The notes below the pieces were generated by a model. That model made no database searches. It was not told the origin of the DNA and saw only the letters and a list, made by a program, of their open reading frames with translations. From NCBI GenBank assembly GCA_017473165.1, contig JAFUNA010000036.1, positions 1-53,306 on the forward strand: a stretch of DNA of 53,306 nt, read 5' to 3'. The DNA is from Clostridia bacterium. Its GTDB lineage: Bacteria > Bacillota > Clostridia > Oscillospirales > Acutalibacteraceae. This document shows positions 1,825 to 49,228 of this stretch, piece after piece (position 1 is the first letter of the stretch; each line of letters starts with the position of its first letter). The position numbers and the translations under genes were made by a program.

Positions 1825-1853
1825 TTGACTAAACCGAGCTGTCATATTATAAT
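1825..1853 (+). promoter_or_regulatory. Promoter of the rightward radical SAM operon
   Basis: TTGACT (1825-1830), 17 bases, TATAAT (1848-1853). The leader is very short, with AGGGAGG at 1871-1877 and ATG at 1885. There is no room for a cobalamin riboswitch. Confidence 0.8.
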
Positions 1854-1884: not shown

Positions 1885-3807
1885 ATGAAAAAGAATATCT
1901 ATATGGCACAGATTAATTACCTCCACGGTAAATCCACCTTTTTGCCCTATGCCGCAGGAACTCTCATTGCCAACGCAAAGGCTGACGGCGAAATTAATGA
2001 TTTCTACCATTTCAAGGAGCCCCTTTTCATAAGAGAAAGCGTTGAAACGGCTCTTTCAAAAATCACCGACCCGTATCTTATCGGCTTTTCAAATTACATC
2101 TGGAATCACGAATATAACAAGGTGCTCGCAAAGAAGGTTAAGGAAAAATACCCCGACTGCATAATCGTTTTCGGCGGACACCATATTTCTCCCGACACCT
2201 CTCTCATGGAAAGCGAAGAATACATTGACATAATGTGCTTCGGCGAGGGCGAAGAAACCTTTTCCGCACTCCTGCTTGCTCTCAAAAACGGTTCTTCGCT
2301 TGACGGAGTTGCAAACATTGCATACAGAAAAAACGGCAAGCCCGTTTATACATATCACAAAAAATCCGAGGGCATTGACTACCCATCACCCTATCTCACG
2401 GGCGTTTTTGATTCGATTATGGAAAACTATCCGCAAATCGATTTTCATGCCGTTATCGAAACAAACCGAGGCTGTCCCTATAACTGTGCATATTGCGACT
2501 GGGGAAGCCTGCACTGCGGAATAAGATTTTTCCCCGAAGAAAAAATCATGCAGGAGCTCCGCTGGCTCAACGACCACAAAATCAGCGGCTTCGGCGGTGC
2601 TGACGCAAACTTCGGAATGTTTGAGCGTGACGAAAGATTTGTTGACGAAATGGTGCGTCTGCACAATGAGGAAGGCGTTTTCAAGGGCTTTCAGGTATCG
2701 AGTGCAAAGAACAGTAACGAGCGTGTTTTCAGCATTTCCAAAAAACTCAACGACTGCGGAATGGACAAGGGTGCGACCCTCTCTTTCCAGTCATTGAGCC
2801 CCGTTGTGCTTGAAAATATTCACAGAAAAAACATTTCCGTTGACACCTTCACGCAGCTTCTCAACAAATACAACGAGGCGGGAATCCCCACCTATTCCGA
2901 GCTGATTCTCGGTCTGCCGGGCGAAACCTGCGAAAGCTTTGTTGAGGGCATTGACATTCTTCTCAATTCGGGTCAGCACAATTCAATTTATATTCACGAC
3001 TGCGAATGGCTCCCCTGCTCTGCAATGGGCAACCCCGAATATGTTGAAAAGCACGGAATAAAATATGTTCTTGTGCCCCTCAATCAGCCCCACACAGTCC
3101 TGATTGACAACGAAGAAATCGGGGAATTCTCCAGACTCATCGTTGAAACAAACACAATGAGCCGTGCCGACTGGGTGAGAATGAACATCTACTCCGCAAC
3201 AATTCAGGCGTTCCACCACGAGGGTCTGCTGATGCTCTTTGCCCTTTATCTTTACAACGAAAAAGGCATAAAATATTCAGATTTTTACAACGCATTTATT
3301 AATTATATGTTCGAAAATCCCGAAACCGTGGGCGGCAGAATCTATGCAAAGCTCAAAGAGAGATTTGAAGCCGTTGCAAGAGGCGAGGCGGGAATTGTGT
3401 GGGAAGACAGACGCTTCGGCGATGTCGGTTGGCCGTCCGAAGAATTTGCGTTTCTCAATGCCGCATATGAATGCGATAAATTCTATGCCGAAATAAAAGA
3501 TTTCATAAAATCGTTTTTTGAAAACGACAATGCTTTTGAGGATTTGTTCCTCTGGCAGACAAAAACGGTCAAGCTTCCGTTTACCGACAAAATCGAATTC
3601 GAATGCGGCTATGATTTCAAGAGCTATTTTTCGGATTTGCTTTGCGGTCAGCCTGCAACTCTCAAAAAGGCAAGAACGCTGAACACGGTTGAAAAAACCG
3701 TGAAATGCAAATCATGGCAGGATTATGCCAGATTTATCGTATGGTACGGCAGAAAAGACAGCCGCAACATTTACCTTGATGAAGTTGATTCACAGGAGAT
3801 AAAGTAA
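1885..3807 (+). CDS. Cobalamin-binding radical SAM protein, ~640-aa subfamily (copy 1)
   Basis: A 640-aa protein, first gene of the rightward operon. Residues 1-150 form a B12-binding Rossmann domain (IIVFGGHHIS and CFGEGEETF are its late strands). No DxHxxG motif is present, as in most B12 radical SAM enzymes. Residues 195-204 carry the 4Fe-4S motif RGCPYNCAYC (Cys 197, 201, 204), followed by DWG. Later blocks ATLSFQSLSP and GLPGETCESF belong to the barrel. Residues about 430-640 form a subfamily-specific C-terminal region (HEGLLMLFALYLYNEKG). Enzymes of this class often methylate unactivated carbon or phosphorus or make rings; the substrate here is unknown. Copies 2 and 3 of the subfamily open the opposing operon. 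Confidence 0.88.
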   Translation: MKKNIYMAQINYLHGKSTFLPYAAGTLIANAKADGEINDFYHFKEPLFIRESVETALSKITDPYLIGFSNYIWNHEYNKVLAKKVKEKYPDCIIVFGGHHISPDTSLMESEEYIDIMCFGEGEETFSALLLALKNGSSLDGVANIAYRKNGKPVYTYHKKSEGIDYPSPYLTGVFDSIMENYPQIDFHAVIETNRGCPYNCAYCDWGSLHCGIRFFPEEKIMQELRWLNDHKISGFGGADANFGMFERDERFVDEMVRLHNEEGVFKGFQVSSAKNSNERVFSISKKLNDCGMDKGATLSFQSLSPVVLENIHRKNISVDTFTQLLNKYNEAGIPTYSELILGLPGETCESFVEGIDILLNSGQHNSIYIHDCEWLPCSAMGNPEYVEKHGIKYVLVPLNQPHTVLIDNEEIGEFSRLIVETNTMSRADWVRMNIYSATIQAFHHEGLLMLFALYLYNEKGIKYSDFYNAFINYMFENPETVGGRIYAKLKERFEAVARGEAGIVWEDRRFGDVGWPSEEFAFLNAAYECDKFYAEIKDFIKSFFENDNAFEDLFLWQTKTVKLPFTDKIEFECGYDFKSYFSDLLCGQPATLKKARTLNTVEKTVKCKSWQDYARFIVWYGRKDSRNIYLDEVDSQEIK

Positions 3808-5291
3808 TGAAAATTTTGCTTATAAATCCCGCTCCCGAGCACTACACAAGAGCCCGCTGCGCTCCCCTTGGCGTTTTATCCATCGCAAGCTATCTCGAGG
3901 CTAACGGTCACACCGTCAAGGTGCTCAACAGAGCAACAAAATCAACCGATATCAACGTTGAACTTGATGAATTCAAGCCCGACTTTCTCGGCTGCTCACT
4001 GCTTGCTGTTATGTCGGTCAAGGACTGCATTATTTGCTCCAAAGCCGCAAAAAAAAGAGGGATAACAGTTGTTTGGGGCGGACCGTATGTTTCCTGCTCT
4101 CCCGAGCTTACTCTTGAGCTCGGCTGCATGGACTTTATTTCCATGGGCGAGGGCGAAGAAACATGGCTTGAGCTTGTTGAAACCGCAGAAAAAGGCGGCG
4201 ACCTTTATTCAATCAAGGGTCTTGCATATCTTAAAGACGGCAAAACGGTTACAACCCCCGAAAGAGAATTCACCGACCTTTCGAAGCTTCCCAAAATCAA
4301 CTATGATTTAATCAATGTCAGGGAAACTCTTTACAAAAACTATGACTACGGCGGAATCATGGGAATGTATCTTTCCAAGGGATGCACGGGTCACTGCACC
4401 TTCTGCTATAACTCTGCATTCCACAAAAACTGCTACCGCTCCCGTAACATTGACCTTTTTATTGAAGAGGTAAGATACCTTAAAGAAAATCACGGCTTGA
4501 AAGCCGTTGCTTTTGCCGATGAGCTTTTCGGCTACAACAAAGAAACCCTGCGTGAAATCTGCCAAAAATTCATTGATGCCGACCTTGGAATTCATTGGGG
4601 CGGTATGACAAAAATCGGTCTTTTCGATAAAGAAGATTTTCAGCTCATGCACGATGCGGGCTGCCGCTGGCTTGAATTCGGTATCGAAAGCGGTGCAAAA
4701 ACAACTCTTGCCCGCATGAAGAAGGGCTACAAGCCCGGACGAGTTGAAGAGGATTTGCAGAACTGCCGTGACGTTGGCATAATTTCACTCTGCTATTTCA
4801 TTGTCGGTTTCCCCGACGAAACAGAGGACGAGCTTCGTGAAACCTGTGCTCTTGTTAACAAAATCAGCTACACGAAATTTGTCTGCTCATATTTCAGTCC
4901 CCTGCCCGGCTCCGAAATTTATGATAAGCTTGTTGCAGAGGGCAGACACACTCCCGCAAAATCCATGAAGGAGTGCATGAAAACCAAAATTTTCTATTCG
5001 CCCAAGCCCAATCTTTCAAAGGTTAAATCTCTTGACCTCAAGGTTGTCCGCTCCCACATTCTCTGGAGCAGCTTTACAAAGAAAAACTTCATCGAAAACG
5101 GTAAGCTCAACTATTCCGTTGCAAAGAAGGATATTCTTGACGTGCTCCGCAGCCTTAAGGGTCACGGATTCAAAAACGGTGTTGAACAGTTTTTCATCAG
5201 CGGCTACGAATTCCTTGATATCTTCTTCTACGGAAATTTCTTCCCGAAAATCATCAAGAAATACGGTCTTGACTTGAAAGAAAGGAAATAA
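3807..5291 (+). CDS. Cobalamin-binding radical SAM protein, ~490-aa subfamily (copy 1)
   Basis: A 494-aa protein. The B12-binding domain covers residues 1-150: MKILLINPAP, APLGVLSIASYLEANGH, VVWGGPYVS, MGEGEETW. The radical SAM domain starts at KGCTGHCTFC with Cys 193, 197 and 200. DELFGYN, FGIESG and FIVGFPDETEDE are typical barrel blocks. The C-terminal 130 residues end in a hydrophobic stretch (FLDIFFYGNFFPKIIKKYG) that is conserved in the next gene and in the gene at 6813, perhaps a membrane-contacting helix. The start overlaps the previous stop (TAATG), which implies translational coupling. It is homologous along its length to its downstream neighbour, so the two arose by duplication. 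The reaction is unknown. Confidence 0.88.
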   Translation: MKILLINPAPEHYTRARCAPLGVLSIASYLEANGHTVKVLNRATKSTDINVELDEFKPDFLGCSLLAVMSVKDCIICSKAAKKRGITVVWGGPYVSCSPELTLELGCMDFISMGEGEETWLELVETAEKGGDLYSIKGLAYLKDGKTVTTPEREFTDLSKLPKINYDLINVRETLYKNYDYGGIMGMYLSKGCTGHCTFCYNSAFHKNCYRSRNIDLFIEEVRYLKENHGLKAVAFADELFGYNKETLREICQKFIDADLGIHWGGMTKIGLFDKEDFQLMHDAGCRWLEFGIESGAKTTLARMKKGYKPGRVEEDLQNCRDVGIISLCYFIVGFPDETEDELRETCALVNKISYTKFVCSYFSPLPGSEIYDKLVAEGRHTPAKSMKECMKTKIFYSPKPNLSKVKSLDLKVVRSHILWSSFTKKNFIENGKLNYSVAKKDILDVLRSLKGHGFKNGVEQFFISGYEFLDIFFYGNFFPKIIKKYGLDLKERK

Positions 5292-5292
5292 G

Positions 5293-6771
5293 ATGAGAGT
5301 TCTTTTCGTTAACCCCGCAATGGAGCGTTATACCCGTCAGGTAGGTTTTCCCTTGGGGATTATGTCCATTGCAACCTATCTTCAGACAAACGGTCACACG
5401 GTTAAGATTCTTGACCGCACAATCAAAACCACAAACATAAAAAAAGAGCTTGAAGAATTCAAGCCCGATATTGTCGGCGTTTCCGTTTTTTCGCTTAAGG
5501 CTTTCACCGATGCGGAAAAGGTTACAAAAGCCGCAAAAAAATTCGGTGCAAAGGTTGTCTGGGGCGGTATTTTTGTTTCGCTCGATACCGAATTCACCTT
5601 CAACAACATTGACATTGATTTCATTTCTATCAGCGAAGGCGAAGCTACATGGCTCGACCTTGTTACAACCCTTGAAGCAGGCGGCGACCCCTATGCCGTT
5701 GCAGGTCTTGCATACAAAAAAGACGGCAAAGTTATTTACACTCCGCAGCGTGAGTTTATGGATTTATCCCTGCTGCCTCCCATTGATTTCACACTCATTG
5801 ACGTTGACAAATATCTCGGCTCGATGTACGGCTGCAAGCGCACCGCCCTTCTTTATCTTTCAAAGGGCTGCTTCGGTCAGTGCACATTCTGCTTCAACAA
5901 AAGATTTCACCGCCAATGCTACCGTGTCAGACCCGTTGAGGTTTTTCTTCAGGAGGTTGAGTATCTTGTTAAAAACCACAATGTTGACTGCATCTATGTT
6001 GCCGATGAGCTTTTCTGCAAAAACAGGCAGGAAATGCTTGACGTTTGCAAGGCGTTCAAGGAATCGGGTCTTGACTTCAAATGGGGCGTTGAAACAAGAG
6101 TCGGCATTTTTGAAAAAGACGATTTCAGAATAATGAAGGATGCGGGCTGCATCTGGATTGCCTTCGGAATTGAAACAGGCTCCCCCGCAATGATGAAGAA
6201 AATCAAGAAGAATCTGCCGTTTGACAAAATTGAGCAGACCTTTGAGGATTGCAAGGCGGTTGACCTTGTTTCGCTTGCAAACTTCATTATCGGTTTCCCC
6301 GACGAAACCGAGGAAGAATTCAGAGAAACAATTGACATGGCACTTCGCATTGCAACAACCCAGCGTACCTTCTTTTTCTATATGCCGGGTCCGGGCTCGG
6401 AACTTTATGACGAGCTTGTTGCAAGCGGACGGTATAAGCCTCCCAAAACTTTCAGAGATTACACCAACATTCAGTTTTTCTATTCCCCGAAGCCGAATTT
6501 TTCAAAAATTCCTTCAAGGGATCTGAAGGTTGTTCGTTCATATTTCCTCTGGAAAGGATTTTCAAGAAAATATTTCTCCGAAACCTCAAGAACATATGAC
6601 ATTGCAAAGAAGGATATCGTTGACGTGCTCAAACAGTTCAGGGGGCACAATCTCCGTTTTGCAATTCAGCTTATACTTATTTCGGCTTACGAATTCCTTG
6701 ACATCTGGTTTTATGCACATTTCTTCCCGTCGATTATAAAAAAATACAATATCAATCTTGACGATGAATAA
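5293..6771 (+). CDS. Cobalamin-binding radical SAM protein, ~490-aa subfamily (copy 2)
   Basis: A 492-aa paralogue of the preceding gene with the same domain order: B12-binding domain (MRVLFVNPAM, FPLGIMSIATYLQTNGH, VVWGGIFVS), then KGCFGQCTFC with Cys 193, 197 and 200, in the same positions as its neighbour. FGIETG and FIIGFPDETEEE follow. The B12-domain block reads ISEGEATW instead of MGEGEETW. The C-terminal hydrophobic helix FLDIWFYAHFFPSIIKKY is kept. The start lies one base after the preceding stop, with AAAGGAAA as ribosome site. It is the last gene of the rightward operon, followed by the shared terminator. The function is unknown. Confidence 0.88.
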   Translation: MRVLFVNPAMERYTRQVGFPLGIMSIATYLQTNGHTVKILDRTIKTTNIKKELEEFKPDIVGVSVFSLKAFTDAEKVTKAAKKFGAKVVWGGIFVSLDTEFTFNNIDIDFISISEGEATWLDLVTTLEAGGDPYAVAGLAYKKDGKVIYTPQREFMDLSLLPPIDFTLIDVDKYLGSMYGCKRTALLYLSKGCFGQCTFCFNKRFHRQCYRVRPVEVFLQEVEYLVKNHNVDCIYVADELFCKNRQEMLDVCKAFKESGLDFKWGVETRVGIFEKDDFRIMKDAGCIWIAFGIETGSPAMMKKIKKNLPFDKIEQTFEDCKAVDLVSLANFIIGFPDETEEEFRETIDMALRIATTQRTFFFYMPGPGSELYDELVASGRYKPPKTFRDYTNIQFFYSPKPNFSKIPSRDLKVVRSYFLWKGFSRKYFSETSRTYDIAKKDIVDVLKQFRGHNLRFAIQLILISAYEFLDIWFYAHFFPSIIKKYNINLDDE

Positions 6772-6773
6772 AA

Positions 6774-6814
6774 AAATTAAGGACATACCGCTTCATTGGT
6801 ATGTCCTTGTTTTT
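6774..6814. terminator. Bidirectional terminator between the two radical SAM operons
   Basis: AAGGACATACC (6779-6789) and GGTATGTCCTT (6798-6808) make an 11-bp stem. GTTTTTATT follows on + and AATTTTTTTATT on -, so it can end both converging operons. It lies eight bases after one stop, and its T run reaches the other. Confidence 0.9.
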
Positions 6815-8297
6815 ATTCAAATCGTTTGCCCATCCCGTATTTTTTCATAATCGAAGGATATGCGTGGGCATACCAGATAACCGAGAAAAGTTCAAATGCG
6901 GAGCTTATCATCGAAAGCGTAAAATCCTTGAGCTTACTGCGTTTAAGCTGTTTTATAGCATCGGTTGCAACCTTTTTCGCAAACGAGAAATTCTCGGTGT
7001 TCTTTGAAATGCTTTTTGCGGAAAAGCTTCGCCACATATACCATGAACGTATAACGTTCAAATCCTTTTCGGGCACGGTTGTGAAGCTGTATTCGTTGCG
7101 TTCGATTGGTCTTATATCCGCAAGCTGACTCAAATCCGTTATCCTCGGATATCTGCCCTCCGCAAGCATTTTGTTATAGATATCCGACCCGGGAACAAGT
7201 GCAAAATAGTTGAGGTTAATAAGCGGAGTTTCAAGCTTTTCGATAAGTTCAACGGTTTTTGCAACATCCTCAACCGTTTCATCGGGAAAGCCTACTATAA
7301 ACGACGCAATGGCAATAACCCCCGCTTTTCTGCAGTTGCTGAAAGTTTCTTCAATTCGGTCAAACGGAATTCTTTTATTCATCTTTTCAAGAATTCTTTC
7401 GCTTCCGCTTTCAACGCCGAAAAATACCCATCTGCAGCCCGAATCATACATATATCTGAAATCTTCCTCGGTGAAAACACCGATTCTTGTCTGGCATCCC
7501 CAGACAAATTTAAGATCAAGACTTCTTAAGCTGTCACAAATCTGACGCATTTCCGTGCGGTTTCTGCCCCACATTTCATCGGCAAAATAAACGCCGTCCA
7601 TGCCGTAGTTTTCGACAAGATATTTTATTTCGTCAAGCACCATGTCAAGAGGGCGTTTGCGGTAGGTGCAGCGGTGGAAATCCTTGTTATAGCAGAACGC
7701 ACAGTTATGAGGGCAGCCCTTTGCACAGTAAAGATAAAGCATTTTGCTGCATTCATATGATGACTGAAAATATTTCGGAACATCAACCAGCGACCAGTCA
7801 ATGGGCGGCAATTCAGCCAAATCAACAAAATCCCTTTGTGCAGTCAGAACGGTTTCTCCGTTTTCGTTTCGCATTGCGATGCCCGAAACAGACAAAAAAT
7901 CGGTTTCGCCCTTTGCGTATTTTTCCGCAAGCTCTGTCCATGTTGCCTCGCCCTCACCTATCGAAACAAGGTCAACGCAGTTATGCTTGAGCACGGTTTC
8001 GGGAATCTCCGAAGCAAGAGGTCCGCCCCATACAACGGGCAGATTGAATTTTTTAGAGTATTCCGAAAGCTCGAGTGCATCATAAACGGATTTGAACGAC
8101 ACAAGCGAAATTCCGACCAATTCGGGCTTGAACTCCTCAAAAACTTTTTTCGTTTTAATCTTTTCAACCGTTCTGTCATAAAGCCTTACTCTGTGACCCT
8201 TTGACTGCAGAGTGCTTGCAATTGAAAGAAGTCCGAGAGGTGCGGTAACAGAGCGGGAATATCCCACGGTTGCGGGATTTATAAGAAGTATGTTCAT
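6813..8297 (-). CDS. Cobalamin-binding radical SAM protein, ~490-aa subfamily (copy 3)
   Basis: A 494-aa protein, last gene of the leftward operon, paralogous to the two genes at 3807-6771. The B12 domain shows MNILLINPAT, APLGLLSIASTLQSKGH, VVWGGPLAS and GEGEATW. The radical SAM motif is KGCPHNCAFC (Cys 195, 199, 202), followed by ADEMWGRN, FGVESGSERI and FIVGFPDETVED. The C-terminal block SVIWYAHAYPSIMKKYG matches the hydrophobic ends of its paralogues. The start codon lies 17 bases beyond the preceding stop with only a weak GAAG-type ribosome site, so translation may depend on coupling. That the same subfamily occurs in both facing operons links them functionally (inference). Confidence 0.88.
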   Translation of the reverse strand: MNILLINPATVGYSRSVTAPLGLLSIASTLQSKGHRVRLYDRTVEKIKTKKVFEEFKPELVGISLVSFKSVYDALELSEYSKKFNLPVVWGGPLASEIPETVLKHNCVDLVSIGEGEATWTELAEKYAKGETDFLSVSGIAMRNENGETVLTAQRDFVDLAELPPIDWSLVDVPKYFQSSYECSKMLYLYCAKGCPHNCAFCYNKDFHRCTYRKRPLDMVLDEIKYLVENYGMDGVYFADEMWGRNRTEMRQICDSLRSLDLKFVWGCQTRIGVFTEEDFRYMYDSGCRWVFFGVESGSERILEKMNKRIPFDRIEETFSNCRKAGVIAIASFIVGFPDETVEDVAKTVELIEKLETPLINLNYFALVPGSDIYNKMLAEGRYPRITDLSQLADIRPIERNEYSFTTVPEKDLNVIRSWYMWRSFSAKSISKNTENFSFAKKVATDAIKQLKRSKLKDFTLSMISSAFELFSVIWYAHAYPSIMKKYGMGKRFE

Positions 8298-8314
8298 TAC
8301 TTCAACTCACTTCA

Positions 8315-10135
8315 TCAATATTTGGGTATATCCTTCTTATATTTCAGCCTGTAATTCTTAACGTAATCCTTACCGTAGCGTGTCAGATAAAACATAAGAT
8401 AATCGCCCTCGGTGAAGGTATGGGGCCAGAGTCTGTCAGCGGTATCTTCAAGGAATTTTTTCTCAAAGCGATTGCGTCTTGCCTTAACCTCCTCCATGGT
8501 GCTCGAAAGGGAGCTGTATTTATAGGAAATATGCAGCTCGCCGTTTTCGTGGAATTCGGTTATGTCAACGCTGTCTGTTTTTGATTTGAGAATTGCGTTT
8601 TTCTTAAGGGCAAAATTTGAGGGCACGCAGGTGTCAACTATTGTGCTGTCATAGATAACATCAATGGTTGACTGCAGCTCCTCATCGGTTTCCGTCGGGA
8701 AGCCGAGAAGGAAGGTTACAACGTTCCAGATGCCCGCCTTTGCGGAATCGGCAAGAATTCTTTTACGTTCCGAAAGGTCAATGCCCTTGTTCATGAGCTC
8801 CATAATCCTCGGCGACTCGGATTCATAACCCCACATCATATAGCGTGCACCCGAATTATACATATTCTGAAGAACATCTGCTGTAAATGCCTTTTCAAGA
8901 CGCACAAAGGAGCTGTAATAAATTTTGAGATTTCTCTTTATAAGCTCCGTTGCAAAGGCGTTGTAGAATGCGGGCGGAACAGCCTCATCAACAAAGTTGA
9001 AATGCTTGAAGCCGTATTTGTTGACAAGAAATTCAACCTCGTCAACGGCTCTTGAAACACTTTTCATATCAAACTTCTGCTGACCCGTGTAGAAATCGCA
9101 GAAGGTGCATTTTGACCAGTAGCAGCCCTTGCCGAACTGAACGGGAAGCACAGGCTCGGGAGCAAGATATTTACCGAAATCAAGGCAATCAAAATCGGGA
9201 TAATAAATATTATCCATATCGAGCAAAGGTGCGGTTTTGTTTGTTATGACATTGCCGTTTTCATCGGCATAAACAAGAGAATGAACATCTCCGATATTTC
9301 TTTTTCCGCACATATATTCCGCAAGCTCAACCGATGCAATTTCACCGTCGCCGACAATGAAGAAATCGCAGTATTCGCTGAAAATTTCGGGAATTTTCTT
9401 GAGGTCGGGCGCAATTTTATAGATATAGTTTCCGCCAAGGCAGATTTTTGCATCGGTTTTTTCTTTGAGAAGTCTTGCAAGCGTCAGACCGGGCACAATC
9501 TGGCTCAGGTCTGTTATTGAAATATTGATAAGAGAGTAAACGGAAAAATCCTTTTCGCCGAGTTTCTGCTCAAAATAAGGCAGAAACATATTCATATCCG
9601 CATTTTTGCATTGATAGTCAACATCGGCAAAATCATAGGTCATAACGGGGTTTGCAATGAAATTGTCTATCATAATTCTTGACGGCACATAGGGCAGAGA
9701 TGCCATATCGAGGGCTGAATTTATGATATCCTTTGCTTCATAAAGCTTTTCGGGGTCAAAAAACAGCTCTTTCGTTTTGATTACGCTCATTGCCCAATCG
9801 ATTTTTTCAATTGTTCTTTCAGCCTTTTCGCCGTCAAATTTTATGTAGTCGCCGACAATACGCTTACGGATTTCAAAGGTTTTCTTTCTTTTTTCGTTGA
9901 TATCATCCGAAAAAGATGCATCACAGGCGAATTCAGCCGATGAAAGAAATTCTTTCGCATCTTCAAGGCTCTTTTTCGCATAATCTTTGTTCAGTATGTC
10001 ATTGAAAAATTCAATATTGAAATCATAGCTTTCGGCGTCAAAGCCTCTGCCTTTAAGCTGACCCACAAGCAAAGCAGCCGCAAGATAGGGGCTTGCGGGA
10101 TACCATTGGGGCACAGCTGTAAAAAGAATTTTCAT
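8315..10135 (-). CDS. Cobalamin-binding radical SAM protein, ~610-aa subfamily (copy 1)
   Basis: A 606-aa protein. The B12 domain starts normally (MKILFTAVPQWYPASPYLAA) but is interrupted by a mainly helical, charged insertion at residues about 45-195. It resumes at VYSLINISITDLSQIVPGL, then ICLGGNYIY and VGDGEIAS. The cluster motif is KGCYWSKCTFC, with Cys 338, 343 and 346, that is CX4CX2C rather than CX3CX2C. VDEAVPPAF, YESESPRIMELMNKG and LGFPTETDEE follow. The same arrangement occurs in the gene at 10874, its paralogue. Similar CYW/CWW-type motifs and split B12 domains are known in some RiPP-maturation radical SAM families, but no precursor peptide is seen here. The reaction is unknown. 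Confidence 0.86.
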   Translation of the reverse strand: MKILFTAVPQWYPASPYLAAALLVGQLKGRGFDAESYDFNIEFFNDILNKDYAKKSLEDAKEFLSSAEFACDASFSDDINEKRKKTFEIRKRIVGDYIKFDGEKAERTIEKIDWAMSVIKTKELFFDPEKLYEAKDIINSALDMASLPYVPSRIMIDNFIANPVMTYDFADVDYQCKNADMNMFLPYFEQKLGEKDFSVYSLINISITDLSQIVPGLTLARLLKEKTDAKICLGGNYIYKIAPDLKKIPEIFSEYCDFFIVGDGEIASVELAEYMCGKRNIGDVHSLVYADENGNVITNKTAPLLDMDNIYYPDFDCLDFGKYLAPEPVLPVQFGKGCYWSKCTFCDFYTGQQKFDMKSVSRAVDEVEFLVNKYGFKHFNFVDEAVPPAFYNAFATELIKRNLKIYYSSFVRLEKAFTADVLQNMYNSGARYMMWGYESESPRIMELMNKGIDLSERKRILADSAKAGIWNVVTFLLGFPTETDEELQSTIDVIYDSTIVDTCVPSNFALKKNAILKSKTDSVDITEFHENGELHISYKYSSLSSTMEEVKARRNRFEKKFLEDTADRLWPHTFTEGDYLMFYLTRYGKDYVKNYRLKYKKDIPKY

Positions 10136-10140
10136 TGCGT

Positions 10141-10869
10141 TTACCTCTTGATTAATTTTTTCTTTGAGGAAAATCTGACCCTCAAAGCGGTTTTAAGATA
10201 GAGTGCGGTTTGTCTGAACGAGTTTTTGGATTTTCCCTCTGTTCTTGACATACACTCAACGGGAATTTCCCTGAATTTTGCTCCGATACGAAGCGGTGCA
10301 ACAACAAGCTCAATCAGAAACGGAAAATTAAGCTCCCGAAAATCGATTGATTTGTAAAGCTCGGTCGGCATTGTCTGCACGGGCAGAGTGAAATCCGTCA
10401 AATCCGAAAGGAAAAGGATTTTTAAAAAAATCTGGGCAAGACGGTTGAATATTTTTCTTGTCGGGTCATATTCGTGAAAGCTGCCCTTTTTGAGCCATCT
10501 TGAAGTTTTAATTATTGTTTCGGGCTCTGCCTTTGCTCCGTTTACCATGCGGGGAATGCAGTCAAGCGAAACCCCCAAATCGCCGGGCAGAAGCATTATG
10601 TGCGACGAGGCTGCGGAATCAAAGCCGTCACGGATTCCTCCGCCGATATAAGGTCTTGTCTGCATCATTCCGAAAACCTTGCCGGGATATTTTCGGCTTA
10701 ACATTTCTATTGCATTAACGCATTGCTCCGCCGCACGCTTCGGATAAACCATGACAACCCTGTCGATATCGTTTATATCGCAGGTTTCCATGATGTAGTC
10801 AACGGTTTTCTTAAGACCTTCGTTTTCATCGGTTGCACCTATATAGATTGAAACCTTTTCAAAATTCAT
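10141..10869 (-). CDS. GT-A glycosyltransferase, family 2 (polyprenyl-phosphate glycosyltransferase-like)
   Basis: A 242-aa protein with a GT2 fold resembling dolichyl/polyprenyl-phosphate hexosyltransferases: an N-terminal nucleotide-binding region, GGGIRDGFDSA, LLPGDLGVSLDCIPRM at the DxD position, then FHEYDPTRKIFNRLAQIFL and DLTDF. The usual DADL is replaced by PGDL and the early DDGS motif is not seen, so metal and donor binding may differ. No transmembrane helices follow. The ATG at 10869 was chosen because an AGGTGAG site precedes it and the start lies 4 bases after the upstream stop; the longer frame overlaps its neighbour. As the only non-radical-SAM gene of the cluster, it points to a sugar-bearing or lipid-linked substrate (inference). 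Confidence 0.78.
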   Translation of the reverse strand: MNFEKVSIYIGATDENEGLKKTVDYIMETCDINDIDRVVMVYPKRAAEQCVNAIEMLSRKYPGKVFGMMQTRPYIGGGIRDGFDSAASSHIMLLPGDLGVSLDCIPRMVNGAKAEPETIIKTSRWLKKGSFHEYDPTRKIFNRLAQIFLKILFLSDLTDFTLPVQTMPTELYKSIDFRELNFPFLIELVVAPLRIGAKFREIPVECMSRTEGKSKNSFRQTALYLKTALRVRFSSKKKLIKR

Positions 10870-10873
10870 AAAC

Positions 10874-12709
10874 TCACCTGAATTCGGGGCAGATACGCTC
10901 CTCTGACCTGTAGTTACGCACATAGTCGCAGCCGTATTCTGAAAGATAGAGCAGAAGGTGGTCAAAATCGGAGAAAACAACAGACCACAGGGAATTTTTG
11001 TTTTCCTCGGTAAATTCAAACTGGAATTTGCGGCGAAGCTCACGTCTGTCTGACTGGGAAACGCCATCCATGACATCTTTATATGAAGTGAAGAATTCGC
11101 CGTTTTCCGTGTAGCTTATAATTCCGTTTGAGCCAACGGATTCCTTGAGAAGCGAATGCTTTTTGAGAGAGAAATTGGAAAGAGTACAAGAATTGATGAT
11201 ATCTCTGTTATTGCGGATAATATTCATCGTCTGCTCAATTTCCTCTGGAGTTTCGGTTGGATAGCCGAAAATGAAAAGTCCGTTATTCCAGATTCCCGCT
11301 TTATGAGAATCAAGCAGAATATCAAGACGTCTTTCGGCGTTGATGCCCTTATTCATAAGCTCCATAACACGCAGGGATTCGCATTCATAGCCCCACATAA
11401 ATATCCTTGCACCCGAATCATAAAGATTTTTGAGCACCTCGGCGGTGTAGCCGTCTTCAAGGCGTGCAAAGGAATAATAGGTTATATCAAGACCCGCTTC
11501 GATAATCGCAAGGGCAAGTCTGTTATAAAATACGGGCGGAATTGCCTCATCGATAAACATAAACCTTGAGGCGGAATAATTGTCAACGTAGTATCTGATT
11601 TCATCGATTATGCGGTCAATGCGTTTGGGGCAGTAGCCCAGCTGACCGTAGGCATAATCGCAGAAGCTGCATTTGCCCCAGTAGCAGCCCTTCGAAAGCT
11701 GCACGGGAAACACGGGCTCGGGAGTCAGATATTCCGAAAAATCATAGTCGCCGAAATCGGGATATGCAACGGTATTGAGGTCAATATGCTCGCAGGTGAA
11801 ATGGGTTGAAACAACCTTTTCTCCGTTATGGAAGCAAATATTCTCAACATTCTCTACGCTGCCGTTGCCGTCAAGAAAATTGCAGAGGTCAACAATTGCC
11901 GTTTCGGCATCGCCGATAACAAGATAATCAATATAGTCGGTGAAAATATTCTCATATTTGAGCATATCCTCATAAATCTGGGTTGCATAGTTTCCGCCGA
12001 GAATGATTTTTGCATCGTTTTTTTCTTTGAGCATTTTCGCAAGGGTGAAAACGGGAATGAGCTGGCTCAAATCCGTCATTGAAAGACCGATTATGTCATT
12101 CCCCTGCCCTGCGATTTCCTCCGCCTTTTCGGCAAGAAATTCATAAAACATATTGAGCCCTTTGTCATCGCACTGAAGCTTTATGCTTGACCAGTCAAGG
12201 CGTAAAATCGGATTTGCAAAATAGTTGTCCAAATCAATTTCGTTTGGTGCAAAGGGCATTGAAGCAACACGCAAAGCAAGCTGCACGGTGCGTTTTGCTT
12301 TTGCAAGCTTTTCGGGAATATAGAAATCGGGAGCATTTTTGAGAGTAAAAACAGCTTTGTCCGTTTCGTTTATAACTCTCTCAATTTCCTCTGCGTTTTC
12401 CGAATAAAACTTTTTGATTGTAAGATATTTTAAACCAAGATTTTTTTCTTCGAAGCTGCCGTTTTCTTTGATTGCCGCAAAATCTGCATTTTTGAATTTT
12501 TCTTCAAGGTCCGAAAGAATTCTGCGTGATTTTTCATCGGCAGCGGCAAGATGAGAATTTGATAAAATTCTGTTATAAAATTTAACATTCAGGTCAAGTG
12601 CTTTGGCGTCAAAGCCCGCTCTTTTGAGCTGTGCGGTTAAAAGAGGCACGGCAAGATGGGGAGAAACGGGATACCACTGCGGCGGCTGAACAAGCAAAAT
12701 CTTTTTCAT
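10874..12709 (-). CDS. Cobalamin-binding radical SAM protein, ~610-aa subfamily (copy 2)
   Basis: A 611-aa paralogue of the gene at 8315. The B12 domain begins MKKILLVQPPQWYPVSPHLA, is split by an insertion at residues about 45-200, and resumes at IIGLSMTDLSQLIPVFTLA, IILGGNYA and VIGDAETA. The cluster motif is KGCYWGKCSFC (Cys 342, 347, 350), again CX4CX2C. Downstream are FIDEAIPPVF, YECESLRVMELMNKG and FGYPTETPEE. Its first ATG overlaps the stop of the preceding gene by four bases (ATGA). The glycosyltransferase gene lies between this copy and the other 610-aa copy, so the three probably act together. Substrate unknown. Confidence 0.86.
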   Translation of the reverse strand: MKKILLVQPPQWYPVSPHLAVPLLTAQLKRAGFDAKALDLNVKFYNRILSNSHLAAADEKSRRILSDLEEKFKNADFAAIKENGSFEEKNLGLKYLTIKKFYSENAEEIERVINETDKAVFTLKNAPDFYIPEKLAKAKRTVQLALRVASMPFAPNEIDLDNYFANPILRLDWSSIKLQCDDKGLNMFYEFLAEKAEEIAGQGNDIIGLSMTDLSQLIPVFTLAKMLKEKNDAKIILGGNYATQIYEDMLKYENIFTDYIDYLVIGDAETAIVDLCNFLDGNGSVENVENICFHNGEKVVSTHFTCEHIDLNTVAYPDFGDYDFSEYLTPEPVFPVQLSKGCYWGKCSFCDYAYGQLGYCPKRIDRIIDEIRYYVDNYSASRFMFIDEAIPPVFYNRLALAIIEAGLDITYYSFARLEDGYTAEVLKNLYDSGARIFMWGYECESLRVMELMNKGINAERRLDILLDSHKAGIWNNGLFIFGYPTETPEEIEQTMNIIRNNRDIINSCTLSNFSLKKHSLLKESVGSNGIISYTENGEFFTSYKDVMDGVSQSDRRELRRKFQFEFTEENKNSLWSVVFSDFDHLLLYLSEYGCDYVRNYRSEERICPEFR

Positions 12710-14616
12710 TCCGTTTCCTCCGAATAATCAATATGATCTCTGGGGTTGACAAGAAGGGTTGCACTGTAGCGTTTTCCGAACCAGATAACCTCTCTTGCAT
12801 AGTCTGCCCAGTTGTCAAAAAGCTTGTCCGACTTGACATGAAGCACGGTGTTTTTCTTTTCAAGCTTTTCGTTTTTCTCAAAATAAGCATAGAAATTCCA
12901 ATCGGAATTTATCTTTACCTCGTCTTTGTTGAGAAGTCTTATAAGTGAATACTGATAGTCAAGCAAGTTCGAAAGCAAGTCAGGCTCAACTCCGAAGCTC
13001 TTTACAAAAGGCATCATATCGCTCTTGAATTCGTCAAAATGATATGCCATTTCAAGGAATGCACCTTCCTCAAAATACCAGCCCGTTGAGCCGAAAACAT
13101 CACGCTGATATGTCCAGTCGGCAGTTTCGGTGTCATACTTTCTGTTGGCAAGGCTGACAAAGAAATCGTGAACAAAACCGCCGCTTTCTTTATAGATATA
13201 GCTGAAAAGCCTGTTATAGAATTCGTGATAGGATATGCCCTTTTCGTTATGCAGATAAATCGCAAAATAACGGAGCAGCCCGAGATGGTGGAAGGTCTGA
13301 AGCACAACCGCAAACATACACGCCTTAACCCAGTCTTTCTTGGGCATGGTTGCCGTTTCGGTTATAATTTCAATATATTCCTGCACTCCGTTAAGCTCGG
13401 GGGTAAAGTGAATTCCGAGCTGTGGAATGACTGATGTTTTGATGCCGAATTTCTGCTGATAATCCTTGTTGCTGACTGCGGTGTTGGGATAAACCTGACA
13501 GTCATAAACCGTCATGGAGTTATTCTGACCCTTTTCAAGCAGGGTGCAGATTCCGCTGCAGAATGTTTCAAAGGTTTCGCCGGGCAGACCGAGAATAAGC
13601 TCCGTATAGGTTGGCACTCCCGCTGCAGTGAATTTTGCATCAATTTCCGCAAAGCTTTCAAGAGTCAGATTCTTTCTGCCGATATTCTCAAGAGCTGTTT
13701 TATCAAGAGTCTGATAAGCAAGGGTTACGCTCTTGTCAATCTGATTTTTGTTGAGAATATAGCCCGCTTTGAACGCATTTTCATTGCTTTCCTTTGCATA
13801 GCAGGGCTTGAAAACTCCGGGATAGCCGTATTTTTTCTTCATCTCGACAACAAATTCCGCAATTTCAACGTCACGGTCAAACATTCCGAAATTTGCGTCT
13901 GCACAATAGCTGTAGCTGATTTTATGCTGTGCCGCCCACTCGATTTCCGCCTTCACCTTTTCAATCGGGAAAAGACGTACTTTCTTTGTGCAGCTCCATT
14001 CGCAGTATGCACAGGAATAGGGACAGCCACGGTTGGTTTCAATTGTAACGTGATATTCAATATGGGGAAACTCCGCCATAATTCCGTCAAAAACGCCTTC
14101 AAGATAGGGCGACGGATAGGCTGAAATATCCTCGGGGATATAGGTTTTTGTTGTGATTTTTTCGCTGCCGTTTCTGTAGCAGAGATTTGGAACATTTTTT
14201 AAATCCGTACCGTTTTCGAGAGCCTTGAGAAGCATTGCCGTGCTTTCTTCGCCCTCGTTATACATAAGAAAATCAACATACGGGCACTCGTCAAGCAGAC
14301 TTCCGTCTTTTTCAACATTCGGTCCGCCGAAAACAATTATGATTTCGGGATATATCTCCTTAAGCCTTTTCGCAAGGACTTTATTATATTCAAAATTCCA
14401 TACGCTGCACGAAAACGCCGCCATAAACGGATTTTCAAAGCGATCAAGAATTTTTTCAACAGGCTCTCTTGCCGTCAGGATATCGGGGATTTCAAAGCAT
14501 TCCGAAATCTCCGCATCCTTTTTGAGATATGCGGCAATGCACCCTGCGGAATACGGTAAAAACCAGGGTGTTGAGTAAGATGAGCCTATCTGAATTAAAA
14601 AGACCTTTTTCTTCAT
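12706..14616 (-). CDS. Cobalamin-binding radical SAM protein, ~640-aa subfamily (copy 2)
   Basis: A 636-aa relative of the gene at 1885. The B12 domain has FLPYSAGCIAAYLKKD, IIIVFGGPNV and YNEGEEST (Asn replaces the usual Gly before EGEE). The cluster motif is ETNRGCPYSCAYCEW (Cys 198, 202, 205). The blocks TLAYQTLDKTALENIGRKN and LGLPGETFETF match the other copies, as does the C-terminal LGLLRYFAIYLHNEKG. The ribosome site AAAGGAAA precedes the ATG at 14616, 12 bases after the previous stop. It lies second in the leftward operon. Biochemical role unknown; radical SAM and B12 binding are well supported. Confidence 0.87.
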   Translation of the reverse strand: MKKKVFLIQIGSSYSTPWFLPYSAGCIAAYLKKDAEISECFEIPDILTAREPVEKILDRFENPFMAAFSCSVWNFEYNKVLAKRLKEIYPEIIIVFGGPNVEKDGSLLDECPYVDFLMYNEGEESTAMLLKALENGTDLKNVPNLCYRNGSEKITTKTYIPEDISAYPSPYLEGVFDGIMAEFPHIEYHVTIETNRGCPYSCAYCEWSCTKKVRLFPIEKVKAEIEWAAQHKISYSYCADANFGMFDRDVEIAEFVVEMKKKYGYPGVFKPCYAKESNENAFKAGYILNKNQIDKSVTLAYQTLDKTALENIGRKNLTLESFAEIDAKFTAAGVPTYTELILGLPGETFETFCSGICTLLEKGQNNSMTVYDCQVYPNTAVSNKDYQQKFGIKTSVIPQLGIHFTPELNGVQEYIEIITETATMPKKDWVKACMFAVVLQTFHHLGLLRYFAIYLHNEKGISYHEFYNRLFSYIYKESGGFVHDFFVSLANRKYDTETADWTYQRDVFGSTGWYFEEGAFLEMAYHFDEFKSDMMPFVKSFGVEPDLLSNLLDYQYSLIRLLNKDEVKINSDWNFYAYFEKNEKLEKKNTVLHVKSDKLFDNWADYAREVIWFGKRYSATLLVNPRDHIDYSEETE

Positions 14617-14628
14617 CTGAACTTTCCT

Positions 14629-16545
14629 TTATTCTTCGGTTACGTCGTCTTTATAGGATGCCCAGCCCATTCTGCCGTACCACACAACAAATTTGCCGTA
14701 GTTAAACCAATCGGGTGCGGTGCTGCTGTCTTTCATAACAAGGGTATGGGCTTTCTTTTCAAGGGGTTTATAGTTATCAACATAAATTCCTGTGAGATAG
14801 CTGTGGATATCATAATCAAGCTCTTCTCTGCACTCCGTTTCGGCGGGCTTGCGGAGAATTGCTTTCTGATACCTGAACAAATCGTTGAAGATGTCCTCGT
14901 CGATATCAAAGCTCTTGAGATAAGGAATCATGTCCTCATAAAATTCATCAAGCCTTGAAATCATATGGAGCACAAGATATTCGTTATCATCCCACACCAT
15001 ATCGCCGCAGGGCTCAAAAAAGAGCTTTTTGTTAACGATACCGAGGGATTGCTCGGTTGCGTGCTCTTTGATTTCGAAATAAAGCTTTGATGCAAACAAA
15101 TCGGGATTCGCCTCAAAATAATCAAGCATTCCGTCATAGAATTTCTCGTAGGGCACTCCCTTTTCGTTGCGGAGATAGATGTCAAACGCACGCAGAAGTC
15201 CGTTGCCGTGGAGAGCCTTTGCGACATAGTAGAAAACGGTTGACCTTATCCACATTTCACGGCTCATGGTATCGGTTTCAACGATGATTGTGTTATATTC
15301 GGGAATTTCAAAAGCCTGATTTGCAAAATGGCTTCTGATAATTTCAAGGTCAACGGTTTTTATTCCGTGCTTTTTAACGAATTCCTTCTGACCGATTCTT
15401 GCGTTGGGCAGAAGAATGCAGCTGTAAACCTCAAAAACAAAGTGCTGACCGAGTTCAAAGAGCTTGCCGATGCCCTGCGTGAAGCTTTCGTAGGTTTCGC
15501 CGGGCAGACCGAGAATCAGCTCGGAATAAGCCTTCATGTTTTCTTTGTTATATGCCGCAAGCAGATTGCGGTAAAAATCAAAGTCCATGTTTTTGCGGTC
15601 AATGTTATCAAGCACCGTCGGTGAAAGACTCTGGAATGACAGAGTTGCACCGACTCTGTCAAAATCAACCTCTTTGAAAATCTTTATGATTTCAAAAACA
15701 ACCTTGAAGTTGGTTTTTGAATAGTTCATTCTCATTCTTTCGGGATAGCCCGTTTTTCTTTTTGCATCGGCAAGAGCCTTTGCAATTTCGATATCACGGT
15801 CAAACATTCCGAAATTGCCGTCAGCACCCCAGATGAAGGCGATTTTGTTGTCGCTCATCCATTGAATTTCCTTCTGAATTCTGTCAAAGGGGAAAAGACG
15901 GGGCTTAACGCTCTGCATACCCCAGTCACAGTATGCACACTTATGGGGGCAGCCGCGGCTTGTTTCAAGGATTGCATTGAATGAAATTTCGGGATACTGC
16001 TCAATCAGACCATCAAACCAGCCCTCAAGATAGGGTGAGGGGTAGTCAAGAGTTGTCTGGCACTTGGTTTCGGTTCTTTTATATCCGTTTTCGCTTCTGA
16101 AGGAAATGTTATAAACTTCGTCAAGCGGAGCACCCGTTGCAAGGGCTTCCATGAGCGTTCTGACCGTATCCTCGCCCTCACCGTGGCAGAGAATATCGAT
16201 ATAGTCGCATTCCTCGAGGAACGAAAAATCATCGGGAACGTTGTGTCCGCCGAAAACGATTATGCATTCGGGGAATTTTTCTTTTATCGCCTTTGCGAGA
16301 AGCTTGTTATATTCGGTGCTCCAGCTGTAGGTGCTGAACGCAGCCATAAAGGGGTTTTCCATTCTTGCAACAACGCCGTCAACGCTTTCTCTTAAAAAGA
16401 TAAATTCTTTGAAGCAGTAATTCTGTTTAACGGTTTCGCTCTGCCATGCAGACGCAACAAGAATACCCGCCGTGTAGGGCAGATAGGCATTCTGTGCACC
16501 CATGCAGGCTGAAACGTCAACCTGAACAAAATAAACATTTTTCAT
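14629..16545 (-). CDS. Cobalamin-binding radical SAM protein, ~640-aa subfamily (copy 3)
   Basis: A 638-aa protein, first gene of the leftward operon. The B12 domain shows YLPYTAGILVAS, IIVFGGHNVP and HGEGEDTV. The radical SAM motif is ETSRGCPHKCAYCDWG (Cys 199, 203, 206), followed by ATLSFQSLSPTVLDNIDRKN and LGLPGETYESF, nearly the same blocks as in the gene at 1885. The C-terminal region contains NGLLRAFDIYLRNEKG. The ATG at 16545 was preferred to one six codons upstream because GGAGGAATAAAA places a ribosome site correctly. The promoter at 16618-16646 drives it. Function unknown. Confidence 0.88.
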   Translation of the reverse strand: MKNVYFVQVDVSACMGAQNAYLPYTAGILVASAWQSETVKQNYCFKEFIFLRESVDGVVARMENPFMAAFSTYSWSTEYNKLLAKAIKEKFPECIIVFGGHNVPDDFSFLEECDYIDILCHGEGEDTVRTLMEALATGAPLDEVYNISFRSENGYKRTETKCQTTLDYPSPYLEGWFDGLIEQYPEISFNAILETSRGCPHKCAYCDWGMQSVKPRLFPFDRIQKEIQWMSDNKIAFIWGADGNFGMFDRDIEIAKALADAKRKTGYPERMRMNYSKTNFKVVFEIIKIFKEVDFDRVGATLSFQSLSPTVLDNIDRKNMDFDFYRNLLAAYNKENMKAYSELILGLPGETYESFTQGIGKLFELGQHFVFEVYSCILLPNARIGQKEFVKKHGIKTVDLEIIRSHFANQAFEIPEYNTIIVETDTMSREMWIRSTVFYYVAKALHGNGLLRAFDIYLRNEKGVPYEKFYDGMLDYFEANPDLFASKLYFEIKEHATEQSLGIVNKKLFFEPCGDMVWDDNEYLVLHMISRLDEFYEDMIPYLKSFDIDEDIFNDLFRYQKAILRKPAETECREELDYDIHSYLTGIYVDNYKPLEKKAHTLVMKDSSTAPDWFNYGKFVVWYGRMGWASYKDDVTEE

Positions 16546-16617
16546 TTTTATTCCTCCGTGCAAGCCGAAAATCTCTTATATAATTAATTTGATACATTAT
16601 TATTAGTTAACTGAATT

Positions 16618-16687: not shown

Positions 16688-17176
16688 TTATGTTGAAGCT
16701 GATGCCGCTGCCTGCGATGCCATTACGCAGTCGATGGTTAAAACAACCGCAAGGGCAATAATTTCGTCACGGGAATCGGCTATGTCAAGCTCATAGCTGT
16801 CGCCCCATGTCATCCATTCCTTCTGAATGGTAACAATGGGATTGCCGTTTCGTGATATCATATAGTTGTGCGACCAGAAATCGCCGTTTATATACCAGCC
16901 GAGCCCCTCAATTCTGTATTTCGGGCGTAAAAAGGTGAATTCCTTAACTATTTCGGCAATCTGTTCACCGTTGACAAAAACATGATATTTCGGAAGAAAG
17001 CTGAAAACCTTTTGCTGAATAAAAGCAACCTCTCTGCCGTTCAAATCCGTCACATGGAGCTTTCTGCCCCATGAAAAGACCTCGCCCTGAACAAAATATC
17101 TGTCGCTGCCGTTTTCATCTTTCACGGTGAATTTAGCACCCCATGAGAAAACCTTTTGTTTTATATAAAGCTTCAT
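16688..17176 (-). CDS. LURP-one-related (LOR / tubby C-terminal-like) protein
   Basis: A 162-aa protein of the LOR family (YxjI type), a 12-stranded barrel around a central helix that is related to tubby and scramblase folds. Family hallmarks are MKLYIKQKVFSWGAKFTVKD, VFSWGRKLHVTDLNG, QQKVFSFLPKYHV and the hydrophobic C-terminal helix DEIIALAVVLTIDCVMASQ. The molecular role of bacterial members is unknown; membrane or lipid association is often proposed. The ATG at 17176 is preceded by GGAGGAACCGAA, better than the ATG six codons earlier. It is monocistronic, with its own promoter and terminator. Confidence 0.85.
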   Translation of the reverse strand: MKLYIKQKVFSWGAKFTVKDENGSDRYFVQGEVFSWGRKLHVTDLNGREVAFIQQKVFSFLPKYHVFVNGEQIAEIVKEFTFLRPKYRIEGLGWYINGDFWSHNYMISRNGNPIVTIQKEWMTWGDSYELDIADSRDEIIALAVVLTIDCVMASQAAASAST

Positions 17177-17205
17177 TTCGGTTCCTCCCTTCATATGTTA
17201 TTTAC

Positions 17206-45824: not shown

Positions 45825-45950
45825 AAGGGCAGAGCCCTTCCTTAACTCGCCGAAGGCGAATATCACTTTCGGCAACGCCGAAAATATCACACAACAAAGT
45901 TGTATATCACATTCCGCAAGGAATATATCACCGTGAGCGAAGCGAACCAA
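45825..45950. repeat. Hairpin-string repeat between ruvC and ruvA
   Basis: Five small perfect hairpins stand in a row: AAGGGCAGAGCCCTT (45825-45839), TCGCCGAAGGCGA (45847-45859), TTTCGGCAACGCCGAAA (45867-45883), ACAACAAAGTTGT (45891-45903) and ATTCCGCAAGGAAT (45911-45924). The last four are each followed by the identical heptamer ATATCAC (45860, 45884, 45904, 45925). The stems differ while the linkers are identical, so it is not a simple tandem repeat. On the transcribed minus strand the linker reads GTGATAT. The element contributes the 3' end of ruvC. Confidence 0.85.
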
Positions 45951-49058: not shown

Positions 49059-49089
49059 AATTTCACCTGCCTGTACTGACGTAAATGAT

Positions 49090-49169
49090 ATGTGCTTTGC
49101 ACATGATGAATGATATACTCCGTCGGAGTATGATGTGTTGCCTCGCAACATTAAGGACAGGCTCCGCCT
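49090..49169. repeat. Hairpin-string repeat in the DUF512 gene leader
   Basis: Four hairpins in a row: ATGTGCTTTGCACAT (49090-49104), ATACTCCGTCGGAGTAT (49115-49131), TGTTGCCTCGCAACA (49136-49150) and AGGCTCCGCCT (49159-49169), with linkers GATGAATGAT, GATG and TTAAGGAC. On this strand the grammar (TGATAT linkers, then TTAAGG and a GGCTC-loop hairpin) matches the minus strand of the element between ruvC and ruvA. It lies between the promoter at 49229 and the start codon, so the hairpins are transcribed. The remainder of 49059-49390 holds only two divergent promoters and AT-rich DNA. Confidence 0.8.
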
Positions 49170-49228
49170 ATGACCGATTTTGTCTGCCCGAAATGCGAAA
49201 CGCATTCTTCCATTTTAGTATTCATAAC

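Follow-up and report, generated by a model that had tools for sequence, protein, structure and literature searches.

A two-locus array of cobalamin-dependent radical SAM genes associated with nucleotide-sugar genes in a Clostridia bacterium

Positions 1885–16545 of contig JAFUNA010000036.1, from a Clostridia bacterium of the family Acutalibacteraceae (assembly GCA_017473165.1), hold nine intact reading frames, eight encoding cobalamin-dependent radical S-adenosylmethionine (B12-rSAM) proteins and one a glycosyltransferase (GT). The stretch analyzed, positions 1 to 53,306 of this contig, is referred to as the window. The window carries one half of a larger system: its array comprises eight of the eleven B12-rSAM genes in the set, and the remaining three lie at a second locus of the same genome, beside a nucleotide-sugar module. 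On balance we think that the array forms the radical-chemistry half of a pathway for a surface glycan, a polyprenyl-phosphate-linked sugar, in which radical C-methylation is combined with other radical steps. Gene content, gene order, orthology, co-occurrence, conserved cofactor residues, and predicted folds are established directly. Such an array is undescribed in the open-licence PubMed Central literature as far as we have searched it; the enzyme families themselves are already known.

Organization of the cluster

Starting at 1885, the plus-strand genes are named A, B, and C; those on the minus strand are, in order of rising coordinates, D, E, GT, G, H, and I, the last being the first-transcribed gene of the minus operon. 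The features are:

1825..1853, plus strand: sigma-70-like promoter match (11/12) upstream of A
1885..3807, plus strand: A, B12-rSAM, TokK/KedN5-like, 640 aa; first gene of the plus operon
3807..5291, plus strand: B, B12-rSAM, 494 aa; best models HpnJ / MCR-Gln methyltransferase / BchE
5293..6771, plus strand: C, B12-rSAM, 492 aa; best model BchE
6778..6809, both strands: two-way terminator-like stem-loop between the operon 3' ends; 13 pairs on plus, 11 on minus, T-tails both ways
6813..8297, minus strand: D, B12-rSAM, 494 aa; best model BchE; last gene of the minus operon
8315..10135, minus strand: E, B12-rSAM-type, CX4CX2C motif, 606 aa; extension before the B12 region
10141..10869, minus strand: GT, glycosyltransferase with a polyprenyl-phosphate-sugar-synthase-like fold, 242 aa from the ATG at 10869
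10874..12709, minus strand: G, B12-rSAM, CX4CX2C motif, 611 aa
12706..14616, minus strand: H, B12-rSAM, TokK-like, 636 aa
14629..16545, minus strand: I, B12-rSAM, TokK/KedN5-like, 638 aa
16618..16646, minus strand: sigma-70-like promoter match with extended -10 (12/12) upstream of I

Intergenic gaps are at most 41 bases, and the start of B overlaps the stop of A by one base. The GT frame is open further, in frame, to 11076, and I starts at either an ATG at 16545 or a TTG at 16563. The promoter matches at the outer ends and the two-way stem-loop between C and D argue for two facing operons, as proposed in a preliminary description of this DNA, which had also correctly counted eight long B12-rSAM frames with the GT as the only other gene among them. 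Over the whole scan terminator-like sites are in excess (30 vs 18.4 in shuffles); promoter-like sites are not (28 vs 25.7).

The three subfamilies of three, three, and two members recognized in that description are recovered by identity as A/H/I (37–41%), B/C/D (40–48%), and E/G (41%), with 21–28% across subfamilies over partial lengths only. A/H/I and B/C/D are each spread over both operons and GT is flanked by E and G, again as described. An N-terminal B12-binding domain had been claimed for every B12-rSAM frame, and this holds only in part. All eight proteins pass the Pfam Radical_SAM cut-off and six pass that for B12-binding, G (the paralogue of E) only just (32.5); I falls below it (26.4 vs 32.1 bits), E has no Pfam B12 match, and the B12 region of E and G starts after ~190 residues rather than at the N terminus. 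The DXHXXG motif of His-on cobalamin binding is present in none of the eight B12 regions. According to an excerpt of PMC13331322, base-off binding of cobalamin with no such histidine occurs in many radical SAM enzymes.

Of the 13 B12-rSAM genes in the genome (2.11 Mb in 38 contigs, 88% complete), eight sit in this cluster and three at one other locus, so the clustering of the eight is not chance. The two single genes, both of B/C/D type, lie at L010 6938–8404 (contig C18) and L011 4587–6128 (contig C37); the latter stands after an apparent DUF362-type ferredoxin protein gene, and its 60% relative is near the core cluster in genome G039.

A second locus and its contiguous counterparts

The second locus, on contig C9, holds three more A/H/I-type genes (C9a, C9b, and C9c) beside a nucleotide-sugar module, the neighbors being a 2-hydroxyacid dehydrogenase, an HddA-like sugar kinase, a cupin, an NDP-sugar epimerase/dehydratase, two membrane proteins, and a fusion of an HddC-like nucleotidyltransferase with a GmhB-like phosphatase. 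The best models for the kinase and the fusion gene come from the GDP-D-glycero-D-manno-heptose pathway (HddA, GmhB, HddC), of which only GmhB scores above its curated cut-off, HddA and HddC falling below; in contrast to that pathway, the second locus is joined to three B12-rSAM genes. The earlier remark that no synthase is present thus stands for the window but not for the genome, where sugar genes occur at this locus.

Both halves form a single locus in four genomes of the same genus (G016, G022, G036, G041) and in G116, from another genus of the family, with 8 to 11 labeled genes per stretch (labels being best tblastn matches above 60 bits; the count for G116 takes in an additional radical SAM gene). 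C9a and C9b are separated in G022 and G041 by the segment A-H-G-I-GT-E-D, and are convergent neighbors with nothing between them in the window genome and in G010. The window core (I, H, G, GT, E) is 57–70% identical to loci L059, L066, and L081 of metagenome-assembled genomes (MAGs) vs 40–52% to same-genus genomes. Because the core is nearer to these MAG loci while C9a–c and the sugar genes match the genus (64–95%), the comparison suggests cassette exchange, as in capsule loci.

Conservation among carriers

Searching public genomes with the E/G alignment yielded 69 loci from the best 80 of 91 stretches. Counts refer to the 36 close loci (L058–L092 and L095), the 33 distant ones, mostly from other phyla, being set aside; L071–L076, L079, L091, and L095 were treated as the same contigs as those of genomes bearing G numbers. 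All 36 close carriers are MAGs assigned to Clostridia, Oscillospiraceae, or Ruminococcaceae; the titles of 23 name a ruminant host, and those of the other 13 name none. H and E are each present at 35 loci, GT at 34, I at 32, G at 30, A at 23, and a B/C/D-type gene at 18, E/G presence being true by construction since the carriers were found by E/G. GT stands next before E at 29 loci, H before G at 23, and I before H and G before GT at 19 each (neighboring labels on one strand, within 250 bases). Since many genomes retain the genes side by side and mostly in the same order, the neighborhood supports the earlier proposal of one dedicated system.

Fetched stretches carry 3 to 11 labeled genes, some being ended by contig ends. 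L059 and L081, with both flanks read, have I-H-G-GT-E only, i.e. four B12-rSAM genes, and L060 and L069 have the same set ended by contig ends. Loci this small sit less easily with the earlier idea that the paralogues act in turn on one scaffold, although the genomes of L059 and L081 (G199 and G214) have five A/H/I-type genes each. These include a C9a orthologue on another contig, so the split system is not peculiar to the window genome.

A FastTree tree of 112 A/H/I-type proteins, limited to rows of 560–760 aa, has long branches; in it H, C9b, and C9c are single clades, as are A and C9a except for the rows of L092, and I forms two main groups with C9b between them, both I groups occurring at L078. 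All groups together need 6 changes vs a minimum possible of 5. On the question, raised previously, of whether the subfamilies predate the cluster, the tree indicates for the A/H/I type that the paralogue duplications are older than the carriers. The array of L092 (UBA1447) is expanded, and three of its genes, two of E/G type and one of I type, are fragmented through either decay or assembly error.

Association with nucleotide-sugar genes

We scanned 198 genomes, the window genome included, for A/H/I-type genes (E 1e-60) and the HddC-GmhB-like fusion (E 1e-45), with copy numbers, as in the E/G survey of these genomes, capped at six scored candidates per genome and the association taking no account of relatedness among them. 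A/H/I-type genes are found in 33 genomes and the fusion in 28, with both in 26 and the fusion only in two (G079, G109); the HddC match is partial in G006 and G013. C9a orthologues (at least 52% identity, full length) occur in 25 genomes, all among the 28 with the fusion. Seven genomes have A/H/I-type genes without the fusion (G012, G029, G032, G042, G043, G091, G103), and in five of them a fucokinase/fucose-pyrophosphorylase-like gene lies in or beside the array, as seen by Pfam in G012 and G032 and by similarity in G029, G042, and G043, in a survey of the array-bearing genomes; none is present in 12 kb of G091, and G103 is fragmented. Among the 36 carriers, all of which have A/H/I-type genes, the HddC-GmhB match extends over at least 386 of 417 residues in 31, and a GmhA-like gene is found at three loci. 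Given the heptose-type fusion or fucokinase that accompanies the arrays, the radical enzymes tend to occur with whichever nucleotide sugar the strain makes. In G010 an array adjoins a pair of GT2 genes, genes for an ABC-2 permease and an ABC ATPase, and one for an IspD-type cytidylyltransferase; by its predicted genes this is an export-type polysaccharide context.

The TokK/CysS-like enzymes

Between H, with which the A/H/I type was searched, and TokK the alignment spans 530 residues (E 5.1e-90); H also aligns with CysS (E 1.7e-49). TokK and CysS are iterative cobalamin-dependent radical SAM C-methylases of the carbapenem and cystobactamid pathways, respectively. A, H, and I have the CX3CX2C motif with B12-binding and radical SAM domains (the B12 domain of I under the Pfam cut-off), and together with the three second-locus paralogues they resemble TokK and CysS in length, in this motif, in a Trp under the cobalt, and in a Trp after the third Cys. 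Excerpts of two papers place TokK W76 under the cobalt, with W215 helping to hold SAM and cobalamin together (PMC9692996), and give CysS the same lower-face Trp, W75 (PMC12846815). The lower-face position is Trp in 111/112 A/H/I-type rows (the exception being L092_0), and that of TokK W215, two residues after the third cluster Cys, is Trp in 109/112, including A, H, I, and all three second-locus paralogues. Its exceptions are L092_13 and the A-type proteins L070_7 and L085_5; in the latter two the residue is Asp or Ser, which hints at a changed reaction in one branch.

By analogy the A/H/I-type enzymes probably methylate an unactivated sp3 carbon. They differ from TokK and CysS in that several specialized paralogues replace one iterative enzyme and the neighbors are glycan-type. 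Membership in KedN5 as a named family was rejected, as A, H, and I score 230.2, 231, and 228 bits against NCBIfam NF033712 vs a curated cut-off of 700.

The B/C/D and E/G enzymes

The best models for B, C, and D are BchE, HpnJ, and MCR-glutamine C-methyltransferase (up to 164 bits), all far below curated cut-offs; for BchE (TIGR02026) the scores are 136.2, 163.8, and 141.1 bits vs 481.35. Partner genes of these pathways were not recognized near the cluster, where no search was aimed at them. The closest PDB relatives of C are AprD4 (6fd2) and 9ccb (~5e-18).

In the E/G type CX4CX2C replaces CX3CX2C in 13/13 aligned rows. The best models for E and G are the ribosomal-peptide (RiPP) maturation family TIGR03975, their top NCBIfam match (123.3 and 144.2 bits vs a cut-off of 281.85), and the PhpK-type TIGR04479, likewise below cut-off, and no PDB relative of G was found at E 0.001. 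A domain precedes the B12 domain in both, an OxsB-like layout going by an excerpt of PMC13331322, but CX4CX2C sets them apart from RiPP-maturation, PhpK-type, and OxsB-type enzymes alike. With scores below cut-offs, membership of BchE, PhpK, or HpnR as named families was rejected, and no reaction is assignable to B, C, D, E, or G. The E/G family is seemingly not tied to glycans everywhere: distant relatives at L114 8091–14890 (Bacteroides faecichinchillae) and L119 7284–16265 (a Melioribacteraceae MAG) sit among what, read from protein starts, appear to be branched-chain amino acid ABC transporter genes.

The glycosyltransferase and a GT-C-like membrane protein

GT has, along almost all of its length, a predicted fold like those of dolichyl-phosphate-mannose synthase (DPMS) and ArnC, and it may transfer a sugar to polyprenyl phosphate. 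It is shorter than DPMS, ArnC, and GtrB, lacks the C-terminal membrane part that these enzymes have, and differs in its metal-site segment, PxDL, with one invariant Asp. A phmmer search of GT against PDB sequences gave nothing meaningful.

A GT-C-transferase-like membrane protein, encoded outside the window, adjoins ten loci. It represents one of two membrane-protein families beside the second locus, neither of which has a Pfam or NCBIfam model at 0.01. In a structure search with the model of a relative (pLDDT 68.9, weak) the top 34 chains all have the GT-C fold, and a distinct drop separates them from the rest. We considered and rejected a GtrA-type flippase at the cluster, the two GtrA genes of the genome being on contigs C13 and C8.

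A proposed pathway and its alternatives

We infer the substrate, the order of steps, methylation as the reaction, and the product as follows. The second locus would make a nucleotide-activated, perhaps heptose-type sugar by means of the sugar kinase, the nucleotidyltransferase-phosphatase fusion, the cupin, and the epimerase/dehydratase. Six enzymes of TokK/CysS type (A, H, and I plus the three of the second locus) would use a first SAM to form methylcobalamin and a second to abstract a hydrogen atom from an sp3 carbon, adding methyls at different carbons of the sugar or of the same sugar once lipid-linked. Further radical steps (methylation, ring formation, or oxidation) would fall to B, C, and D and to E and G with their CX4CX2C motif. 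GT would load the sugar onto polyprenyl phosphate, and the GT-C-like protein would move it to its final acceptor. The preliminary description had offered a lipid or a polyprenyl-linked glycan as scaffold, and the GT fold, the GT-C-like neighbor, and the nucleotide-sugar genes favor the latter. Two points weigh against this pathway: the DPMS/ArnC-like fold of GT also fits soluble glycosyltransferases, and plain Foldseek with the GT-C-like model reaches E 0.032 at best, the weakness of the GT-C evidence lowering our confidence slightly.

It is unlikely that the enzymes instead tailor a lipid (a polyprenol or membrane lipid), with GT merely adding a head group. Models that match B, C, and D include BchE, HpnJ, HpnR, and ladderane-type ones, and G116 has dxs-like and prenyl-synthase-like genes some kb away, in what reads from the sequence as a housekeeping run. 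A CrtI-like gene paired with a FAD/2Fe-2S (ferredoxin) reductase-like gene is present at 8/36 loci but absent from the other 28 as read, no fatty-acid genes were recognized among the recurring flanking families (named by eye, not all scanned), and it is sugar genes that associate with the arrays. Lipid tailoring remains as an explanation mainly for those eight loci.

Synthesis of a C-methylated small natural product that is released, as in the TokK and CysS pathways, seems improbable. The nearest solved enzymes do serve antibiotic pathways and the distribution is patchy (E/G-type genes in 9/198 genomes, the window genome included), but no scaffold synthase or carrier protein was recognized among the recurring neighbors, with the same limits on how these were named, and both GT and the GT-C-like protein speak for an intermediate bound to the membrane. 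We give little credence to the array being a by-product of gene duplication with its enzymes serving unrelated pathways; the varying number of labeled genes per stretch and the two single B/C/D-type genes would fit this, but old orthologous groups have been kept together and are associated with sugar genes. RiPP maturation, to which the top match of E and G and two genes reading as M42 peptidases on the flanks of the genus locus might point, is hardly credible and was rejected, as E and G score far under the TIGR03975 cut-off and the gaps in the cluster leave no space for a precursor gene.

Regulation, mobility, and other features of the window

Control of the cluster by a cobalamin riboswitch was rejected, there being no match at gathering score in the window, L009, L043, L049, or L050; the sole cobalamin riboswitch of the genome is on contig C28, with no gene nameable in the 2.4 kb around it (end-open frames not listed). 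Plasmid carriage was likewise rejected, with no near match to 7.1 kb of the cluster in a plasmid collection. A virus-collection search with H found one distant locus, L144, an A/H/I-type gene (31%) on a 77-kb contig.

A LURP-one-related (LOR) protein is encoded at 16688–17194 (minus), upstream of I on the same strand, with the promoter match of I between them. A segment at 45855–45933 (minus) matches the Rfam sRNA family Gut-1 (52.3 bits, gathering 50). Another radical SAM protein, with PDZ and DUF512 domains, is encoded at 47751–49205 (minus), adjoins der, and looks like a housekeeping gene. As an excerpt of PMC11659888 reports DUF512 to be a cobalamin-binding domain, this protein may bring the cobalamin-dependent radical SAM proteins of the window to nine.

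Significance

More speculatively, the surface sugar made through these loci may be of a new class, namely a residue of heptose or fucose type bearing several C-methyls added by up to six dedicated B12 radical methylases, tailored by BchE-like and CX4CX2C enzymes, and displayed through polyprenyl phosphate and a GT-C protein. With cassettes swapped as in capsule loci, this would be a surface-variation system of gut bacteria. TokK, CysS, TsrM, and Mmp10 work singly, in antibiotic or protein-modifying pathways, whereas here up to eleven B12-rSAM genes occur together, in an apparent context of surface-glycan assembly. If the proposal is correct, radical C-methylation of cell-surface sugars would be opened to study, the array would provide a natural set of specialized sp3-carbon methylases, and vitamin B12 supply would affect the surface of a gut bacterium.

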